From Arenibacter amylolyticus (lineage in GTDB: Bacteria; Bacteroidota; Bacteroidia; Flavobacteriales; Flavobacteriaceae), in assembly GCF_002150785.1 (NCBI RefSeq), contig NZ_MTAZ01000011.1, forward strand, positions 1 to 64,000: a stretch of 64,000 nt of DNA, in the 5' to 3' direction. Below, in pieces: positions 10,293-45,342 of this stretch (the first letter of the stretch is position 1; the number at the start of each line of letters is the position of its first letter). The notes beneath the pieces were generated by a model, which saw only the letters and a program-made list of their open reading frames with translations, was not told the origin of the DNA and made no database searches. The position numbers and the translations under genes are program-made.

Positions 10293-12491
10293 TTAGTTTT
10301 GGGAGATTTCCTCCTTAGTGTTCTTTATTTTGATATCGGTTCCGAGTCGTTGTAGGTAGGCGATCATTGCTACAATCTCCCGATCCTTCATTTCTATAAA
10401 TTCCTCTCCGTTTTCCGCAGCATACTGTTTATCTGCTTCATAATTCGCCGCAAAGTCTGGATCGGTATATAGATTCTTTTCTATTTGGGAGGCCTGTTGA
10501 TCCATATGCTCAAAGGCGTTGGCAACCTCCTCCTCAGTATACGGGACCCCCAAAGCGATCATTGCCTCCATTTTCTTTTGGATTTTACTTCTGTCGTGCT
10601 TGTCTCTTACCAACCATTGATATGCCGGCATAATAGATCCTGAAGAGGTACTTTGTGGATCGTACATATGGTTTAGGTGCCAACTGTCAGAATACTTTCC
10701 ACCTATCCGTAGCAAGTCGGGCCCGGTACGTTTACTACCCCATAGGAAGGGATGGTCGTAGACAAATTCCCCTGCTTTGGAATATTCTCCATACCGCTCT
10801 ACCTCACTACGGAACGGTCTTACCATTTGGGAGTGACAACCAACGCAGCCTTCTCTAATGTAAAGGTCTCGTCCTTCCAATTCTAATGGGGTGTAAGGTT
10901 TTACACTGGTAATCGTGGGAATGTTGGATTTTACCAATATGGTGGGTACTATTTGGATGATACCTCCTATAAGGATGGCCACTGTGGCCAAAATAGTCAA
11001 CTGTATAGGCTTTCGCTCTAACCAGGTATGGAAGGTTTCTCCTGCAGTTCTTTTCTTGGAAACCCTGGTTAAGGCTGCGGCCTCTGCCAACTCGTCTTCT
11101 ACCTTGCTGCCAGATTTAATGGTTTTAGCTAGGTTGTAGATCATTACTAGGGCACCTACGATAAACATACTGCCTCCTATAGCACGCATCCAATACATAG
11201 GGATAATCTGAGTAACGGTTTCTAGGAAGTTTCCGTAAACCAAGGTTCCGTCGGGATTAAATTCTTTCCACATTAAAGCTTGGGTAAAACCAGCAACATA
11301 CATAGGTAGTGCATATAGAATAATACCTAAGGTGCCTATCCAAAAGTGGAAGTTGGCCAAGGGAACAGAATGTAACTTGGTTTTGAACATTCTCGGAATT
11401 AACCAATAGATCATTCCAAAGGTGAGGAATCCGTTCCAAGCCAAGGCGCCTACGTGGACGTGGGCTATAATCCAATCGCTAAAGTGTGCAATGGCATTTA
11501 CATTTTTTAAAGATAGCATGGGGCCTTCAAAAGTGGCCATCCCGTATCCGGTTATAGCGACCACCATAAACTTTAAAACAGGATCTGTCCTTACCTTATC
11601 CCAAGCACCCCTAAGTGTTAGTAGACCGTTGATCATACCACCCCAAGAGGGGGCTAGCAGCATTATGGAAAAGGCCACCCCTAAATTTTGGGCCCAATCT
11701 GGTAACGAAGAATACAAAAGGTGGTGTGGCCCCGCCCAGATATAGATGAAAATTAAAGACCAAAAGTGAACAATAGAAAGTCTATAGGAATAAACAGGCC
11801 TATTGGCCGCCTTGGGAACAAAATAATACATTAGTCCCAAGAAGGGGGTGGTGAGAAAGAAGGCTACCGCATTGTGTCCGTACCACCACTGTACCAACGC
11901 ATCCTGTACCCCGGCATAAACGGAGTAGCTCTTAAAAAGCCCTACTGGGATGGCCAGACTATTGAAAATATGAAGTACGGCAACGGTTACGAAAGTAGCC
12001 AGATAGAACCAGATAGCGACATATAAGTGACGCTGTCTCCTCCTTAACATGGTGCCGATGAGGTTCCAGCCAAAAGCTACCCAAACAATGGTTATGGCAA
12101 TATCTATTGGCCACTCCAGTTCTGCATATTCCTTGGTAGAGGTGTATCCCAGCGGTAAGGTGATGGCGGCTGCCACAATAATGGCTTGCCAGCCCCAGAA
12201 ATTTAAGTTACTTAGTTTGTCACTGTACATTCTGGCCTTTAGCAGTCGCTGTGTGGAATAATAGACCCCTGCAAAAATGGCGTTTCCTACAAAGGCAAAA
12301 ATCACCGCATTGGTATGTAGGGGACGCAGGCGGCCAAAACTTAACCAGGGTATGCCATCGGTGATGTTGGGGAAGAGAAACATAAAGGCGAGCAATAGCC
12401 CCACGGACATGCCCACAATTCCCCAAAACATGGTAGCATAAATGAATTTTTTTACGATTTTATTATCGTAATAGAACTGCTGTACTTCCAT
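10293..12491 (-). CDS. ccoNO: Fused cbb3 oxidase catalytic and mono-haem subunits CcoNO
   Basis: This 732-residue fusion joins CcoN (residues 1 to about 460; multi-TM haem-copper oxidase subunit I, with conserved segments such as WYGHNAVAFFLT and HVHVGALAWNGF) to CcoO. The CcoO part has a TM anchor near 500-520 and one haem c motif, CVGCH, at about 549-553, followed by SQMVRPF. The fused form is usual in Bacteroidota. It is the oxygen-reducing, proton-pumping core of the high-affinity cbb3 terminal oxidase in the inner membrane. It is co-transcribed with ccoS (2-bp gap) and ccoQ. Confidence 0.95.
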   Translation of the reverse strand: MEVQQFYYDNKIVKKFIYATMFWGIVGMSVGLLLAFMFLFPNITDGIPWLSFGRLRPLHTNAVIFAFVGNAIFAGVYYSTQRLLKARMYSDKLSNLNFWGWQAIIVAAAITLPLGYTSTKEYAELEWPIDIAITIVWVAFGWNLIGTMLRRRQRHLYVAIWFYLATFVTVAVLHIFNSLAIPVGLFKSYSVYAGVQDALVQWWYGHNAVAFFLTTPFLGLMYYFVPKAANRPVYSYRLSIVHFWSLIFIYIWAGPHHLLYSSLPDWAQNLGVAFSIMLLAPSWGGMINGLLTLRGAWDKVRTDPVLKFMVVAITGYGMATFEGPMLSLKNVNAIAHFSDWIIAHVHVGALAWNGFLTFGMIYWLIPRMFKTKLHSVPLANFHFWIGTLGIILYALPMYVAGFTQALMWKEFNPDGTLVYGNFLETVTQIIPMYWMRAIGGSMFIVGALVMIYNLAKTIKSGSKVEDELAEAAALTRVSKKRTAGETFHTWLERKPIQLTILATVAILIGGIIQIVPTILVKSNIPTITSVKPYTPLELEGRDLYIREGCVGCHSQMVRPFRSEVERYGEYSKAGEFVYDHPFLWGSKRTGPDLLRIGGKYSDSWHLNHMYDPQSTSSGSIMPAYQWLVRDKHDRSKIQKKMEAMIALGVPYTEEEVANAFEHMDQQASQIEKNLYTDPDFAANYEADKQYAAENGEEFIEMKDREIVAMIAYLQRLGTDIKIKNTKEEISQN

Positions 12492-12722: not shown

Positions 12723-12765
12723 TAAAACTAAAAAGGGGGTAATTGGTATAACATGACATTAATCA
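12723..12765 (-). promoter_or_regulatory. Fnr-like box and -7 element of the ccoSNOQP promoter
   Basis: The inverted repeat TGACATTAATCA (12754-12765) lies upstream of ccoS. On the minus strand a -7 element TAGTTTTA (12730 down to 12723) begins 29.5 bp from its centre. The same spacing recurs at the ccoI, fnr and uspA promoters. If the -7 element starts near -12, the box is centred near -41.5, the class II activation position. The rest of the 391-bp gap 12704-13094, which must also hold the promoter for the divergent cytochrome gene, shows no other clear signal. Confidence 0.7.
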
Positions 12766-13094
12766 GCTTTTGAAAAAAAACTTTTGGGAAATAACTTTTA
12801 AGAAAGAAAAGAGCTCAATTGTCATTCTAAACAAACTGGTTGACAAGGAGTTGGTTGGTAGGGTAAAGGGAAGAGGGCCTATACGTACTAAGACGGCTTC
12901 TCTTTAATGGATTATTCGTAACGATTTATGGACAATACGTTAGGAAATGAAGTATTATGTATGAATAGTTTCTTAAAATGAAACAATTTATGGGAAAGAT
13001 TTTTAGTTTTGCGACTTTCAGATTAAAAACCAGCGATTTTTGTCGGGAATGTATATTAATTAAATGTTGATTTAATAGGTTAATAGCGTAAACT

Positions 13095-15743
13095 ATGTTT
13101 AAGAAAATTGGATTTGTTTTATTATTGGGGCTGTTTGTGGTCAGCTGTGGGGAAGACAAGACTCCTTGTGACCCAAGTAGCGAGGTTATAGATTATTCCG
13201 AGGCCGATTCTTTGGCACAGGTCTATAATTGGCCCAAAGATTTAAAAATTACAAGATTTGCCGGACCCGATCTAACCCCTAGCCCAGCGTGTATGGCTGT
13301 GGCAGCTACAGGAGAAGTTTTTGTAGGGGTAGATATGATGGGTTCCCTAGGGAAGGATATGGGGAAAGGGTTTATCAAAAAATTGGTAGACTGTAATCAT
13401 GATGGGGTGCTGGATTCCTATACTAAATTTGCGGAGGTAGATAACCCAAGGGGAATTTTACCTGTTGGAAATCAACTTTTTGTTTTACATACTACCTTTA
13501 CCGAGGAAACGGGAAAGGCAGATAATATGGACCTAATCGTTTTTGAGGATTTAGATAATGATGGTGTGGCCGATGGTCCAGCCAAAGTATTGATCAAAAA
13601 CCTGAGTAACTCCAAATACCTTCAGGAAAGAGGTACAGACCATGCTACCAACGGGATCCAAATGGGAATAGACGGGTGGATCTATATCGCAGTGGGCGAT
13701 TTCGGATTCCATAACGCTACCGGTACTGATGGTACACAGTTGACCATGTTGGGCGGTGGAGTACTTCGTGTGCGCCCCGATGGTACCGAAATGGAAGAAT
13801 ATACTCATGGATTGCGTAACATCTATGATGTAGCTATTGATCCCTTCATGAATATCTTTACTAGAGGAAATACCAATGATGGTGGAGGATGGAATATTCG
13901 TTTTTCTCATCAGATGCAAACTGGGGAATATGGTTATCCCATGCTTTTTAAACATTTTACAGAAGAAATTATCCCGGCCTTGGTAGATGCAGGTGGTGGA
14001 TCTGGTACAGGAGCGTTGTTTATGAATGACGACCGCTGGCCAGCGCATTACAACAATGTGCCCATGATGGCAGATTGGGGTAGAAGTTTCCTATACATGC
14101 ATAGGGTTACAGAAGACAAGGCTAGTTTTACTCAAGAAGAAGAGGAGTTTATTAAACTACCACAGATAACGGATCTAGATGTAGATGCCTCTGGGGTAAT
14201 GTACTTATCTGCTTGGGACGGAGCAGGATATTCTGGTAGTCCGGACAGAGGGTATATTGTAAGAGTAGTTCCAGAGAACTTGGAGCACGAGCCTTTTTCA
14301 CCGGTAGAAGATATCTATTGGACTAAGAGTTTGGTGAACTTACTAAAAGCAGGGAATGCCAAAACAAGATTAAGTGCGCAGTACGAATTGATTAGGAGAG
14401 GAAAAGGAGCGAACTCCGTTTTAAAACTGGCGAAGGATAAGAACCTTTCACTGGAATCAAGAGTTGCAAGTATCTTCACCTATGCACAAATGACGGGTGA
14501 GGAAGGAATAGATAACCTAGTATCCCTTACGGAAGACCCAGCGGTGCAGGAGTTCGCTTTAAGAGCCCTGGCAGACCGATTGGGAATTGTAGCGAACGTT
14601 CCATCGGAGCCATTTGTGGAGGCATTAAAATCTGACTCGGACAGGGTAAAGGCCGCCGCTATTGTAGGCTTGGGCAGATTGGGTAGAGCAGAATTGGCAG
14701 AGCACCTATTGGAGGTGCCGGTTCCTAACTCCTTCCAAGCTCCATTATTGGGAAGTGAAGGTCCGCATGCCACACCTAATTCGGATATACTTTTGCCTCA
14801 CTTGGCCGTAAAAGCCTTGGTAGCATTAAATGCCGAAGACGCAGTTGTAAACGCTTTACGTACTAAAAATCAGGATTTGGCACTATGGGCTATGCGTTAC
14901 ATGCATTCACCTAAGGTGGTAGAAGGATTGATTAAGGCCTATGATGAAACTGAAAACGCCGAATTTAAGGAGAAAGTAAGCAATACTTTGGCCCGACTCT
15001 ATCATCAGGAAGCTCCGTACGACACCTCTTGGTGGTGGAGTACTAGACCAGATACCCATGGTCCTTATTATAAAACGGTAGAATGGGAGATGACCCCCAT
15101 TATTGGTGAGTTCCTTACCCAAGAATGGAAGAAAACCCCAGAGGAGCGTAAAGATTTATATGCCGAACTTAACAGTAAATACCGATTAGGGATAGAGGAG
15201 TTTGGTATCTTGGAGAAAAGAGAGCCTAAAGAGGATATGCCTTTGGTAGACCTAGACAAAATCAAGAACAAGAAAGGTCAGGTAGGTGAAGCTTCCATCG
15301 AAGACGTAATGATCGCCATTAAGCAGATTAAAGGAGATCCGGTAAAAGGAAAGGAAATCTATGGGAATCAAGGTTGCTTTGCATGCCATAGTATTAGCAC
15401 TAGTGAGGTAATGAAAGGACCCTTTATGGGGCAGATCGGTTCCATTATGAACAGGGAGCAGATTGCAGAATCTATTCTAAAACCTAACGCCTCCATTTCT
15501 CAAGGGTTCTCTACGGTAAAGATTGAGACCAATGATGGAAGTATTCATGTAGGGTTTGTAACCGCAGAATCGGCTACTGACCTTACCATACGGAATATTG
15601 CCGGGATTGCAACGGAGCTTAAAATAGCTGATATTGCAGAAAGAGAAGAATTGCCAACCTCTATGATGCCTGCAGGATTGGTGAATTCGCTCAGCTATGA
15701 GGAGTTTGCCTCCTTACTTGCATTCTTGGAAGAGCAGAAATAA
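13095..15743 (+). CDS. Lipoprotein: beta-propeller dehydrogenase-like, HEAT and cytochrome c domains
   Basis: The 882-residue protein begins with a lipoprotein signal (lipobox VVSC, Cys18). A sorbosone/glucose-dehydrogenase-like beta-propeller follows (roughly 35-400: NPRGILPVGNQLFV, HATNGIQMGIDGWIYIAVGD), then alpha-helical HEAT-like repeats (about 420-650). The C-terminal cytochrome c domain has CFACH at 761-765. Database relatives are labelled PVC-type haem-binding CxxCH or membrane-bound dehydrogenase proteins. It is probably anchored in the outer or inner membrane facing the periplasm and may oxidise a sugar-like substrate. It splits the cco cluster on the opposite strand, so it could feed electrons to cbb3 oxidase; that is inference only. 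Confidence 0.82.
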   Translation: MFKKIGFVLLLGLFVVSCGEDKTPCDPSSEVIDYSEADSLAQVYNWPKDLKITRFAGPDLTPSPACMAVAATGEVFVGVDMMGSLGKDMGKGFIKKLVDCNHDGVLDSYTKFAEVDNPRGILPVGNQLFVLHTTFTEETGKADNMDLIVFEDLDNDGVADGPAKVLIKNLSNSKYLQERGTDHATNGIQMGIDGWIYIAVGDFGFHNATGTDGTQLTMLGGGVLRVRPDGTEMEEYTHGLRNIYDVAIDPFMNIFTRGNTNDGGGWNIRFSHQMQTGEYGYPMLFKHFTEEIIPALVDAGGGSGTGALFMNDDRWPAHYNNVPMMADWGRSFLYMHRVTEDKASFTQEEEEFIKLPQITDLDVDASGVMYLSAWDGAGYSGSPDRGYIVRVVPENLEHEPFSPVEDIYWTKSLVNLLKAGNAKTRLSAQYELIRRGKGANSVLKLAKDKNLSLESRVASIFTYAQMTGEEGIDNLVSLTEDPAVQEFALRALADRLGIVANVPSEPFVEALKSDSDRVKAAAIVGLGRLGRAELAEHLLEVPVPNSFQAPLLGSEGPHATPNSDILLPHLAVKALVALNAEDAVVNALRTKNQDLALWAMRYMHSPKVVEGLIKAYDETENAEFKEKVSNTLARLYHQEAPYDTSWWWSTRPDTHGPYYKTVEWEMTPIIGEFLTQEWKKTPEERKDLYAELNSKYRLGIEEFGILEKREPKEDMPLVDLDKIKNKKGQVGEASIEDVMIAIKQIKGDPVKGKEIYGNQGCFACHSISTSEVMKGPFMGQIGSIMNREQIAESILKPNASISQGFSTVKIETNDGSIHVGFVTAESATDLTIRNIAGIATELKIADIAEREELPTSMMPAGLVNSLSYEEFASLLAFLEEQK

Positions 15744-15798
15744 GAGGGGTAGTCCCACTTTTTGAAAGTCGGGCCACTTAAATCTTAATATGATAAAG

Positions 15799-15838
15799 GG
15801 AAGCAGTCTCCAGGGATTGCTTCCTTTTTTTTTTTTTT
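15799..15838 (+). terminator. Strong rho-independent terminator
   Basis: The perfect stem GGAAGCA/TGCTTCC (15799-15805, 15818-15824) with a 12-nt loop is followed by 14 consecutive T. It ends the lipoprotein cytochrome transcript 55 bp after its stop codon. Confidence 0.9.
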
Positions 15839-15875
15839 GGAATGCTTATCGGAAAATCCAAGTGGCATATCAGTT

Positions 15876-16076
15876 GGGCGCTCCCCTATCGGGTCGCTCT
15901 TTCCACTGTACCTGCCTGCTGGCCGGCAGGTCTTTTTTGTATAATTCCCCGCAGGATTACTTTATGTATATGCGGACATTATACACAATGCCGACAAGGT
16001 TTTCAAAACTTTGCAGAATCAGGAGCGAAAAGAACAAAAAGCCAAAAAAGGATGCCGCTGCACTAGCTAAGGCGAA
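15876..16076 (+). repeat. Dispersed intergenic repeat, copy B, interrupted by about 110 bp
   Basis: The left end (GGGCGCTCCCCTATCGGGTC then GCTCTTTCC, 15876-15904) and right end (AAAAAAGGATGCCGCT...CTAGCTAA, 16044-16070) match the intergenic element at 48289-48391 in inverse orientation. In that copy only about 25 bp separate the two ends, here about 133 bp. A 20-bp GC-rich palindrome (15911-15930) sits exactly between the TA and TCTTTTTT that are adjacent in the other copy. Both copies lie just beyond a terminator. ORFs predicted across this stretch are not genes. Confidence 0.7.
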
Positions 16077-16201
16077 GATTAGAATTGATTACAAAGTATT
16101 GAGACCCTCCGCGGTCGGGCCCGAGAACAAGAACCTTATCTAATTTCAGGGCTTAATACGGGGACAGAGCGGAGCCTGCCTACCGACAGGTATGGCCGAA
16201 G

Positions 16202-16513
16202 TCACGAAATTAAACAGGTATAAATTTGTATGTTGTTATCCAAAATCGGGGATAATGCCATCATGAAAACAGCATCATTATTTCCTAAACAAGGCATTGG
16301 GTGGACCTTAGAGGATAGTCTCTGGGTATGGGGCCCTACAGCCCATAATTGAATACCTCGAGGAGAGTTAGTGGGGAGATTTGGATCAACTGAACCTTCT
16401 ATTTCTTTCTTTATTGTTGAATGGACTTTGGCAGTCACTTCCACATAAGGTGCATTTTCAGCACCGATTGAGAGGTCGCACAAGTAGCTTTTAATATCAT
16501 GGTAAATTTTCAT
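16202..16513 (-). CDS. Hypothetical protein, doubtful
   Basis: A 103-residue open frame starts MKIYHDIKSYLCDLSIGAEN and has no recognisable domain, signal peptide or TM helix. It lies in the otherwise gene-free, repeat-rich stretch between the cytochrome lipoprotein gene and ccoI. Its first 60 residues have an ordinary protein-like composition, while the last part does not. It may be a small real gene, or a remnant of a larger gene lost when this region was rearranged. I do not recognise it. Confidence 0.3.
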   Translation of the reverse strand: MKIYHDIKSYLCDLSIGAENAPYVEVTAKVHSTIKKEIEGSVDPNLPTNSPRGIQLWAVGPHTQRLSSKVHPMPCLGNNDAVFMMALSPILDNNIQIYTCLIS

Positions 16514-16679
16514 TTATAGGGAATAGTCGCTCTCCATAGGCATAAAACAAATCTAAAATGGGATAATTCAGATGTGCTAGATTAGCGTAAAGTATACGTC
16601 CCCTAGTAGAGGTTGGCCAAAAATAAATGCAAAACTATTCTACAGTCCATACCCTGCTCAAAAGGGGGATGAAAATTGC

Positions 16680-19058
16680 CTACCGATCCAATTTTCTTCC
16701 CAATAAGTTAGTGGCAATAGTGGTAAATGCCACAATACTGATGGAGCTCAAAGGCATCAAGATAGCTGCAATAACAGGTTTTAACTGACCGGTAACCGCA
16801 AAATAAAGTCCTACTACATTATATAATAAGGAGAGCAGGAAGCTCAGTTTAATTATTTTAATAGCTTTCCTAGAGGCTAGGACGTATTGGTAGAGATGCT
16901 TAAAATGTTGGGCGTCCAGTATGCCGTCGCATGCAGGGGAAAATACGTTGATATTCTCAGAAATGGCAATTCCCACATCGCTTTGTGCCAAGGCTCCAGC
17001 ATCATTTAGGCCATCGCCCACCATTAATACCTTTTTGTTTTGATGCTGTAATTGATTGATGAACGCTAGTTTATTGTCCGGTTTTTGATTAAAGTGCATG
17101 GTAGTCCCCCTTGGTAAAAGTTTGCCAAGAATGGCTCTTTCCCCATCGTTATCGCCAGATAGAATAGCCAATTCCATATCTGAAGACATCTCCTGGAACA
17201 GTTCACTTAGCCCCTCCCTATAGTGGTTTTCAAAAATATAACGGCCTTTATACTCATCGTTAGAACTGATGTGTACTGTGGTTTGGTCCGTGGAAACTGG
17301 TTGGGAGTGACCTACAAAGGATGCAGAACCCACTTTAATCTTGTTCTGCTGGGAAACCCCTACAATTCCATGGCCTAGCTGCTCCTCATATTCCGCTAAG
17401 GTAATTATGTCGTGATCTGCCAATAGTTTATATAGCTTTCTGCTTAAAGGGTGGTTAGAGGAACGCAAGGTGTTTTTTAACAGGGATTCCTCTTCCAAGC
17501 TTAAGTCCATTCCTTCGTAGTGTACTTCACTGTTGGCTGCGGTAGTGATGGTGCCTGTTTTATCGAATATGCCGGTATCTATCTGTGCTAGCTTCTCTAT
17601 GGTTTTACTGTCTTTTAGGTAAAATTTATGTCGGCCAAATAAGCGCAGCATATTCCCTAAGGTAAAAGGCGCTGCCAAGGCAATGGCACAGGGGCAGGCA
17701 ATAATAAGGACGGCAGTAAATACGTTTACCACCTTCCCTGGGTCTAAAAATAACCAGATGCCCGATGCTACAAATGCAATGGTCAGTACCGCAATGGTAA
17801 ATCGCTTACCTATTCCATCTGTCATCGTTTTAAAACTACTGGAGGGGTCGTCCTTAAAAACAGCATTGCTCCAGAGTTGGGTGAGGTAGCTTTGCGATAC
17901 AGATTTAACAGCTTCTACCTCAATGGCACTTGCCAATTGTTTTCCTCCGGCAAATACCTTGTCTCCAGATTTTTTCGGAACGGGCTGGGACTCGCCGGTA
18001 ACAAAACTGTAATCAATTTTAGCCGCTTCACTCATCAGTATAGCATCAACAGGTATAATCTCCCCGTTGCGAATAAGGAGTCGGTCTCCCTTTTCCAGAT
18101 CATAGATCTGTACGCTTTCTTCTTTGTTTTCCTTGTTGATTCTTGTAATTGCAATGGGGAAATAGGATTTATAGTCGCGCTCAAACGATAAATAAGAATA
18201 GGTTTTTTGCTGAAAGAACTTACCCAAGAGCAAGAAAAACACCAATCCCGTAAGGCTATCGAAAAATCCGGCACCCCAATCAAAAATAATCTCGGCGGTA
18301 CTCCTAACAAACAATACTACAATACCTAAGGCTATGGGGACATCTAGATTTAGAAAGCGGGATCGTAACCCTTTGTAGGCCGCAATAAAGAAATCTTGAG
18401 CCGAGTAAAAAACTACGGGCAGGGAAAAAGCGAACATCAGCCATCTAAACACTATTTTAAACTGTTCTAACCAAAACTCCTCCACATCAAAATACTCTGG
18501 GAAGGATAGGAACATCACATTGCCAAAGGCAAAACCAGCAATACCCAATTTATAGATTAAGCTTCTGTCTTTGGTCTTTTTATTATTGTCAAAGTCTTTT
18601 AGGGATATATAGGGCTCATAGCCGATCCGTGCTAAAAGGATGGCAATTTCTTTGAGGGAGGTCTTTTCGGAATTGTAGTTGATCCGAACGGTTTTCTCGG
18701 GGAAATCTACCTGTGAACTAGTGATTCCTGGCGATAATTTATTTAAATTCTCTAAAATCCAAATACAGGAACTACAATGGATATGTGGTATCTGCAGGCT
18801 TACAATCTGAAGGCCGTTGTCACTGAACTCGATAAGTTTCTCCTGGATTTTCTCGGTTTCCAGAAAATCGAACTTGCCTTCAATCTCTGGAGGTGTACTA
18901 CCCGCAGCAGCTTGCAGGTCGTAATAATAGGTAAGCTCGTTGCTGGAAAATATCTCATAGACCGTTTTACAGCCCGAGCAGCAGAAGCTTTTATCCTCAA
19001 AATTTACGGTTGTCTTCTCACAAAGATCGCCACAATGGAAACAAGTGGATTTGTCCAT
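16680..19058 (-). CDS. ccoI: Copper-exporting P1B-type ATPase CcoI/FixI of cbb3 assembly
   Basis: The 792-residue heavy-metal ATPase has an N-terminal cysteine-rich stretch (CFHCGDLC, CCSGC, residues 6-30). An HMA-like domain carries HCSSC at 94-98. Eight TM segments follow, with the transport motif CPCAIALAAP, the phosphorylation motif DKTGTIT and the hinge GDGLNDAGALAQ. CcoI/FixI-type pumps supply copper for cbb3 oxidase. It is on the same strand as ccoS but 4 kb away. It shares a 118-bp divergent promoter region with the Crp/Fnr gene, which carries an Fnr-like palindrome. Confidence 0.92.
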   Translation of the reverse strand: MDKSTCFHCGDLCEKTTVNFEDKSFCCSGCKTVYEIFSSNELTYYYDLQAAAGSTPPEIEGKFDFLETEKIQEKLIEFSDNGLQIVSLQIPHIHCSSCIWILENLNKLSPGITSSQVDFPEKTVRINYNSEKTSLKEIAILLARIGYEPYISLKDFDNNKKTKDRSLIYKLGIAGFAFGNVMFLSFPEYFDVEEFWLEQFKIVFRWLMFAFSLPVVFYSAQDFFIAAYKGLRSRFLNLDVPIALGIVVLFVRSTAEIIFDWGAGFFDSLTGLVFFLLLGKFFQQKTYSYLSFERDYKSYFPIAITRINKENKEESVQIYDLEKGDRLLIRNGEIIPVDAILMSEAAKIDYSFVTGESQPVPKKSGDKVFAGGKQLASAIEVEAVKSVSQSYLTQLWSNAVFKDDPSSSFKTMTDGIGKRFTIAVLTIAFVASGIWLFLDPGKVVNVFTAVLIIACPCAIALAAPFTLGNMLRLFGRHKFYLKDSKTIEKLAQIDTGIFDKTGTITTAANSEVHYEGMDLSLEEESLLKNTLRSSNHPLSRKLYKLLADHDIITLAEYEEQLGHGIVGVSQQNKIKVGSASFVGHSQPVSTDQTTVHISSNDEYKGRYIFENHYREGLSELFQEMSSDMELAILSGDNDGERAILGKLLPRGTTMHFNQKPDNKLAFINQLQHQNKKVLMVGDGLNDAGALAQSDVGIAISENINVFSPACDGILDAQHFKHLYQYVLASRKAIKIIKLSFLLSLLYNVVGLYFAVTGQLKPVIAAILMPLSSISIVAFTTIATNLLGRKLDR

Positions 19059-19083
19059 ATCTAGTTAACTTTAAACACATCTG

Positions 19084-19157
19084 CAAAGTTGGTTGCCAAG
19101 TCTGGGTATAAACATGACAATTGTCAGTTTACCGAATTTTTATAGTGTTTAATTTTG
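19084..19157. promoter_or_regulatory. Bidirectional Fnr-box promoter between ccoI and fnr
   Basis: The perfect 12-bp palindrome TGACAATTGTCA (19115-19126) is centred at 19120.5. On the plus strand TAATTTTG begins at 19150. On the minus strand CAACTTTG, one mismatch from TAnnTTTG, begins at 19091. Both are exactly 29.5 bp from the centre. One dimer site could therefore activate ccoI and the regulator gene symmetrically, making the regulator autoregulated. Confidence 0.75.
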
Positions 19158-19182
19158 CCCTGTCCAGTAAAACCAAGTGTAT

Positions 19183-19869
19183 ATGAGCAGATGTGAAAAT
19201 TGTATAATTCGTCAATTTAATTCCTTACGAGCAATGACTAAGGAAGAGTTAAAAAAGGTCTCGGATACCAAAACCACCAAGATACTTAGGAAAGGGGAGA
19301 TTATCTTTGATGAGGGAGAAAAGCTGAATGGCGTTTATTGTGTTCGTGGCGGGGTTTCCAAACTCTCCAAATTAAGTCCCAACGGAAAGGACCAAATTGT
19401 AAAGTTGGCTACTAAAGGGTCGGTATTGGGACAGCGCTCCGTGATTGCAGAGGAATCATCTAACCTTAAAGCTACGGCCGTAAATGATATGGAAGTCTGT
19501 TTTATTCCCAAAGATGCTATTGTAGATACCCTAAACCGAAATCCCAATTTTGCAGTGGAGGTACTGCGTCATATGGCGCACGATTTAAAGGAGGCCGATG
19601 ATGTTATTGTAAATATGTCCCAGAAAACAGTTAAACAAAGGGTTGCCGAAGCCTTTATCTACCTAGAGGATAATTTTGGGGTGGATGATCAAGGGTATTT
19701 GCTTCTTACCCTTACTAGGGAAGATATTGCCAATGTAGTAGGAACGGCCACCGAATCTGCTATCAGGATCATATCCGAATTTAAGAAGTTGGGGCTCATT
19801 AAAGCTTCCGGTAAAAAAATTGCGATTGCCAACGCCAAAGGACTTGCCGATATGGCCGTGGGCATGTAA
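19183..19869 (+). CDS. Crp/Fnr-family transcriptional regulator
   Basis: From ATG 19183 the protein has 228 residues (MSRCENCIIRQFNSL). It has a cyclic-nucleotide-binding-type beta-barrel (about 30-140, with GEIIFDEGEKLNGVYCVRGG), a dimerisation helix and a C-terminal winged HTH (LTLTREDIANVVGTATESAI). Two N-terminal cysteines (CENC) and further cysteines at VYC and VCF are present. They do not reproduce the exact E. coli Fnr set, so Fe-S sensing is possible but unproven. A GTG two codons upstream is an alternative start. The regulator lies beside ccoI, the cco operon and uspA, all with matching palindromes. Confidence 0.88.
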   Translation: MSRCENCIIRQFNSLRAMTKEELKKVSDTKTTKILRKGEIIFDEGEKLNGVYCVRGGVSKLSKLSPNGKDQIVKLATKGSVLGQRSVIAEESSNLKATAVNDMEVCFIPKDAIVDTLNRNPNFAVEVLRHMAHDLKEADDVIVNMSQKTVKQRVAEAFIYLEDNFGVDDQGYLLLTLTREDIANVVGTATESAIRIISEFKKLGLIKASGKKIAIANAKGLADMAVGM

Positions 19870-20015
19870 ACAGTTCTCCTATTGCTAAGGATACAGTTAT
19901 TCATTGGAAATATGGCCATAACCTTTTGTGTGATCATTTATTCTTGAAACGCAAAATTGGCAAGGCAGGTTAAAGGTATACAGCCCTGATTGTATCTCCA
20001 TACTCCCTAGGAATA

Positions 20016-20058
20016 TGACATAAATCATAGATTCAGCCAAGTGCTACCCTTAATTTTA
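20016..20058 (+). promoter_or_regulatory. Fnr-like box and -7 element of the uspA promoter
   Basis: TGACATAAATCA (20016-20027; the symmetry extends to TATGA...TCATA) is followed by TAATTTTA at 20051-20058. The -7 element starts 29.5 bp from the box centre, the same geometry as at the ccoS, ccoI and fnr promoters. Confidence 0.7.
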
Positions 20059-45124: not shown

Positions 45125-45342
45125 TGCTTGTTCTAAGGATTAGTAAAGAACTATCCCAACTCAATAAAGAAATAGTACCTGCCTTCCAATGGTTTCTACG
45201 TACGTATGGTTAAAAATAAGATTCACGTACAATAATTAGGGGGTGCTATACACAGATATTCTGCAATTCCTGATCTATATCATATGTGCTATGCCTTTTG
45301 TTAACGACCTTTAGGTAATTAACAGCATAAAAAAGAAACGAG

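Follow-up and report, generated by a model that had tools for sequence, protein, structure and literature searches.

A palindrome at a fixed distance from the -7 element marks a predicted low-oxygen regulon in Arenibacter amylolyticus and other Flavobacteriaceae, probably with two Crp/Fnr-type readers

Class II promoters served by FNR or ANR, the control of universal stress protein (usp) genes by ANR and the FixLJ-FixK cascade are known kinds of bacterial regulation. The FNR and ANR regulons of Proteobacteria combine a site of the TGAY-N4-RTCA type in class II placement with targets such as the cbb3 oxidase, hemN and, for ANR, usp genes. In the cascade of rhizobia, FixL is a PAS kinase in which a His and an Arg bind haem and oxygen, FixJ joins a receiver to a LuxR-type helix-turn-helix (HTH), and FixK is a Crp/Fnr-type activator of cbb3 genes. 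In this study, we analyzed 64,000 nucleotides (nt) of Arenibacter amylolyticus DNA (positions 1 to 64,000 of contig NZ_MTAZ01000011.1; this whole stretch is called the window), in which a palindrome of this type, the box, stands at one distance from the -7-like elements of ccoS, ccoI, the Crp/Fnr regulator gene fnr and a usp gene (Table 1).

The window resembles the FNR and ANR regulons in the form of the site, its predicted class II placement and its targets. Unlike them, it has the Bacteroidota -7 promoter element TAnnTTTG, and a second, two-component reader of the box is likely. The regulator also differs from FNR in lacking the third N-terminal Cys and in having an additional conserved Cys53. 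What the genome has in common with the FixL-FixJ-FixK system is a PAS kinase resembling FixL, together with a predicted activator of cbb3 genes that is of the Crp/Fnr type. Unlike FixJ, however, the response regulator carries receiver, cNMP_binding and HTH_Crp_2 domains in one protein, which would unite the steps of FixJ and FixK. In Flavobacterium psychrophilum, oxygen limitation induces the cbb3 oxidase and haem biosynthesis, and the sigma-A -7 box TAnnTTTG lies at -12 to -5, according to the sections of PMC9723704 consulted; these sections name no box or regulator for the response, and the words Fnr and Crp are absent from the main text. CRP/FNR homologues of Flavobacteriales in an anammox microbiome were predicted to be MalR-like and carbon-sensing in the part of PMC8510549 consulted; these too are Crp/Fnr proteins of this order, but the targets described here point to oxygen. 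No description of such a regulon, box or receiver-Crp/FixL-like pair in Bacteroidota was found in the open-licence literature searched.

At each of the four promoters, 29.5 bp separate the palindrome centre from the start of the -7-like element, which corresponds to a gap of 23 nt. The first-pass annotation of this DNA had described this geometry and judged it unlikely to be due to chance. Distance and positions held on re-examination, and the estimate of chance was borne out by the counts given here and below, but the TGAC..TCA form of the palindrome was too narrow, TGAY-N4-RTCA being needed to cover the sites. The joint pattern TGAY-N4-RTCA-N23-NANNTTTR occurs five times in the window against 0.02 expected, and none of 100 shuffles reached five. 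The palindrome alone is not rare (five found against 3.2 expected, with 22 of 100 shuffles reaching five). Since the joint pattern is far above expectation and the palindrome alone is not, the spacing is the signal. The fifth joint match (45271-45313), additional to the sites annotated earlier, lies 30 nt ahead of an open reading frame (ORF) for a CBS-domain protein, whose homologue in genome G022 (63% identity) is boxed at an equal gap from the -7 element TAACTTTA.

A small regulon with further members elsewhere in the genome, associated with respiratory and stress genes, had also been predicted, and the whole-genome scan agrees with it. When gaps of 8-38 nt between the palindrome and TANNTTTR were allowed, 28 pairs were found, 16 of them at gap 23 and 12 spread over the other 30 gaps; the reversed patterns gave nine and five matches over all gaps and none at gap 23. 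The genes behind the 16 sites include fnr, ccoS, seven usp genes, hemN and a cytochrome c gene, and another usp gene sits directly after hemN. Genes for formate-tetrahydrofolate ligase, a pyridoxamine-oxidase-like protein, an MlaE permease, a TolC-like protein and, at a distance of 282 nt, an acyl-CoA dehydrogenase are also among them. The Usp domain was matched 18 times in this genome, grouped into 14 genes, and seven of the 16 sites stand before genes of this group (hypergeometric probability ~3e-14, with 3,500 genes assumed). When any first base of the -7 element was permitted, 24 sites were found against one with the reversed pattern; the eight added sites lie upstream of ccoI, the CBS gene, L143, L145 and L146 or overlap coding sequence (L141, L142 and L144). 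The large protein L145 has a homologue, L190 (64% identity), also behind a box in genome G072. L146, a YceI-like secreted protein gene, has a homologue with a YceI domain in genome G024 (L154:6051-6706, 43%), and the gap-23 box is present in both genera.

The pattern extends through the family. Sixty of its genomes, each from a different genus, contained 861 occurrences of the strict gap-23 pattern and 28 of its reversed form. With TANNTTTG and gaps of 13-33, 331 matches were obtained against 77 reversed; among the 150 matches listed of these 331, gap 23 was found in 95, gap 22 in seven and gap 24 in nine.

Table 1. Boxes, -7-like elements and genes discussed in the text (positions in the window unless a locus is named; aa, amino acids)
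Feature	Position	Strand	Remarks
Box 1, TGACATTAATCA	12754..12765	none	upstream of ccoS-ccoNO
-7-like element of ccoS, TAGTTTTA	12723..12730	-	
ccoS, 69 aa	12494..12703	-	TIGR00847 above cut-off
ccoN/O fusion	10293..12491	-	next gene of the operon after ccoS; PRK14485 above cut-off
Box 2, TGACAATTGTCA	19115..19126	none	common to ccoI and fnr
-7-like element of ccoI, CAACTTTG	19084..19091	-	without the first T of TAnnTTTG
-7-like element of fnr, TAATTTTG	19150..19157	+	
ccoI-like P-type copper ATPase, 792 aa	16680..19058	-	Pfam E1-E2_ATPase, HMA, ATPase-cat_bd
fnr, Crp/Fnr regulator, 228 aa	19183..19869	+	Cys4, Cys7, Cys53, Cys106; Pfam cNMP_binding, HTH_Crp_2
Box 3, TGACATAAATCA	20016..20027	none	upstream of usp gene
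-7-like element of usp gene, TAATTTTA	20051..20058	+	
Universal stress protein gene, 305 aa	20106..21023	+	TTG start; Pfam Usp
Box 4, TGATCTATATCA	45271..45282	none	additional to the earlier sites
-7-like element of CBS-domain gene, GACCTTTA	45306..45313	+	first T missing
CBS-domain protein, 139 aa	45343..45762	+	Pfam CBS, two stretches
FixL-like PAS kinase and receiver-Crp/Fnr response regulator	L147:7644-9954		contig C11 of the same genome; beside boxed usp cluster

With the -7 box at the F. psychrophilum positions given above, the palindrome would be centred at -41.5 from the predicted start; the distance from the box to the -7 element fits the class II-like placement near -41.5 that had been proposed. 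A TTG within 8 nt after the box, as upstream core element, was seen at two of 17 sites in this genome (the element being weak or absent), which suggests that the activator would take the place of the absent -33 element. The end of the -7 element lies 20-48 nt from the ATG at 12 of the 15 sites with a listed ATG start, where ccoS was taken as its ORF of 69 aa; not counted among these 15 is the window's usp gene, whose TTG is 48 nt on.

We regard it as highly probable that the boxes are sites of Crp/Fnr-type activators in class II position at -41.5, that the genes behind them form a low-oxygen regulon and that two sensors are the readers. A dimer centred at -41.5 would touch RNA polymerase, and promoters that have the -7 element but mostly no -33 TTG would fire mainly under oxygen scarcity. 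Among its products would be the cbb3 oxidase, the copper pump serving it, HemN for haem synthesis without oxygen, a cytochrome c, the regulator and many Usp proteins. The two predicted sensors, with recognition helices that are alike, would be Fnr, encoded next to ccoI, and the FixL-like PAS kinase with its receiver-Crp/Fnr regulator, encoded next to a usp cluster.

The arrangement between ccoI and fnr is conserved. Across 18 genomes of the genus, identified as Arenibacter by the coordinates that G005 shares with L076, G011 with L059 and G015 with L062, mean majority identity was 0.94 for the box, 0.99 for the ccoI -7 element and 0.90 for that of fnr, while both 23-nt spacers drift (0.72 and 0.70). 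The gap on the ccoI side was 23 in all 18, and that on the fnr side was 23 in 16 and 22 in two. At the level of the order, 30 genomes contributed 30 loci, and 27 of these have a box upstream of the Fnr gene. Among 80 named loci of the family, 70 have a box no more than 300 nt upstream of fnr, with a divergent ccoI homologue in 69 of these 70 and a ccoI-side -7 element at gap 23 in 68. The ten loci left out as boxless near fnr were L060, L072, L074, L083, L084, L086, L105, L115, L116 and L118; ccoI lies 859-1001 nt upstream of fnr in L060, L072, L074, L084 and L086, and no ccoI homologue was found within loci L083, L105 and L115. The start of ccoNO was out of reach in 8 of the 80 named loci and that of usp in 34; of the remaining loci, a gap-23 box precedes the cco operon in 70 of 72 and usp in 41 of 46.

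The two sides of the ccoI-fnr box are not alike. The first base of the ccoI -7 element was C in 38, A in 19, G in 11 and T in none of 68 loci, which are related to one another; on the fnr side the element starts with T in 25 of 26. A ccoI -7 element weakened in this way would keep ccoI silent without the activator. In the 70 boxed loci among L059-L138, the gap to the fnr-side -7 element is 23 in 28 cases, 9 in 33 and neither of these in nine. With gap 9 the box is centred at -27.5, and a protein bound there, between the -33 and -7 regions, would be expected to block polymerase. When Fnr is at most 67% identical, gap 9 was found in 28 of 33 loci and gap 23 in none; among loci with a nearer Fnr, gap 23 was found in 28 of 37 and gap 9 in five. 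A tree of Fnr implies at least two changes between the two arrangements, including one on the way to Eudoraea and a neighbor, although this is a quick tree with 29 of 67 inner branches open, and the nine of 70 loci that fit neither arrangement were left out. The two positions suggest a switch between positive (-41.5) and negative (-27.5) autoregulation of fnr.

The protein adjacent to the box has a cNMP-binding-like domain and a Crp HTH (Pfam), and in the PDB it matches FNR type regulators best; the NCBIfam Fnr model PRK11161 gave 110 bits, under its cut-off of 228. Its Cys4, Cys7 and Cys106 align with cysteines of FNR, the third N-terminal Cys of FNR aligns with Asn13, and Cys53 is extra. All four cysteines were invariant in 49 of 49 aligned proteins (the window and 48 of the 80 named loci) and were conserved to 90% or more across a broader set of 19 proteins. 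A putative iron-sulfur cluster may be held by Cys4, Cys7, Cys106 and perhaps Cys53.

A second regulator with a similar recognition helix (GMATETLIR against GTATESAIR in Fnr) is encoded on contig C11 of the same genome. This response regulator, here called receiver-Crp, is followed by a boxed usp gene and accompanied by a kinase with PAS (best PDB match FixL), HisKA and HATPase domains. The FixL-type His and Arg, which would allow haem and oxygen binding, were kept, as judged by eye, in the PAS domain of all eight kinases read from ten loci (this and nine other genomes); the L165 kinase has a different N-terminus as read, and no PAS kinase was found in L160. Downstream of the receiver-Crp gene, nine of the ten loci have a gap-23 box, L163 having none, and the next gene is a boxed usp gene in eight (in L160 the next gene was not read). 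The receiver-Crp/FixL-like pair beside a boxed usp gene is conserved in other genera.

The number of boxes follows the presence of either regulator. Fnr was scored as present at E<=1e-60 (37 genomes) and receiver-Crp at a full-length match with E<=1e-70 (25 genomes); weak Fnr matches with E between 1e-30 and 1e-60 (G052, G068, G075 and G083) were scored as absent. The median number of boxes per genome was one with neither regulator (n=12), 10 with Fnr only (n=23), 15 with receiver-Crp only (n=11) and 24.5 with both (n=14), the last group including the genome of the window. Per Mb, genomes with neither differed from those with receiver-Crp only (Mann-Whitney p 0.0008) and with Fnr only (0.0005), and Fnr only differed from both (0.0002), although the per-genome counts ignore relatedness and the presence thresholds were chosen after the lists were seen. 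Since genomes having just one regulator type are still boxed, each of the two can apparently serve the box. In particular, 11 of the 60 genomes have receiver-Crp but no Fnr at E<=1e-60 (G068 with a weaker match) and hold 7-34 boxes each. The first-pass annotation had assigned the regulon to the adjacent Crp/Fnr protein. The small regulon stands, but Fnr as its sole reader is weakened by these 11 genomes, and the adjacent protein probably shares this role with another; the earlier interpretation is thus partly supported, being right in kind and incomplete in naming the reader.

It is possible, though we doubt it, that the regulon is divided, with Fnr on respiratory boxes, receiver-Crp on usp boxes and a small overlap. 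In the Fnr-only genome G022, five of 20 boxes precede relatives of the A. amylolyticus members (ccoI, ccoNO, hemN, cytochrome c and CBS), and none of the 20 sites matches the usp genes of this regulon. In the receiver-Crp-only G072, six of ten boxes precede such relatives (four usp, hemN and MlaE), and the frequent boxed usp gene next to receiver-Crp points the same way. However, hemN is boxed in G022 and G072 alike, and G024, which has two receiver-Crp copies and no Fnr at E<=1e-60, has boxes upstream of usp, ccoI, ccoS and hemN. The gene-by-gene basis consists of three genomes, and G022 and G024 each carry another Crp/Fnr protein of a different type. Receiver-Crp perhaps leans towards usp genes. 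It is unlikely that Fnr is the sole reader in this genome, with receiver-Crp having another site and its neighbors being boxed through Fnr control. The adjacency of fnr to a conserved box in 70 of 80 loci and the 23 boxed Fnr-only genomes would fit this, but the 11 boxed receiver-Crp genomes, the boxes of G024 and G072 and the likeness of the recognition helices speak for a second reader. Chance spacing of a common palindrome, near its expected frequency in the window when taken alone, was rejected for the set and is practically out of the question given the spike at one gap, the reversed control and the conservation across genera, although single sites may still be chance.

Besides the limits of the per-genome counts, several points weigh against two sensors reading a low-oxygen regulon. 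The Fnr of the window, without the third N-terminal cysteine of FNR, does not match the four-Cys ligand set of the FNR cluster. Genome G080 (82% complete, 6% contaminated) has 29 boxes and neither regulator was found in it, while G042, G052, G075 and G083, with weaker Fnr-like proteins, have one, one, two and five boxes. Some members of the regulon, such as the distant acyl-CoA dehydrogenase gene, may be chance matches.

A more specific form of the two-sensor reading seems to us evenly balanced. The -41.5 box of Flavobacteriaceae would be a shared port for an Fnr with non-standard cysteines and for a FixL-like haem kinase with its Crp/Fnr regulator; either would suffice, both would enlarge the regulon, and a 14-bp shift of the fnr start would flip its autoregulation from activation to repression or back. 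The box, the 23 nt and the -7 element give a predictive rule for control by low oxygen across a large family of bacteria. They also offer a probable natural case of two sensors at one site, and of autoregulation that promoter spacing seems to have flipped. Other types of Crp/Fnr protein are encoded at L150:2875-3579 on contig C25 of A. amylolyticus and at L154:10388-10984 in G024, where a gap-23 box then lies at 11042.

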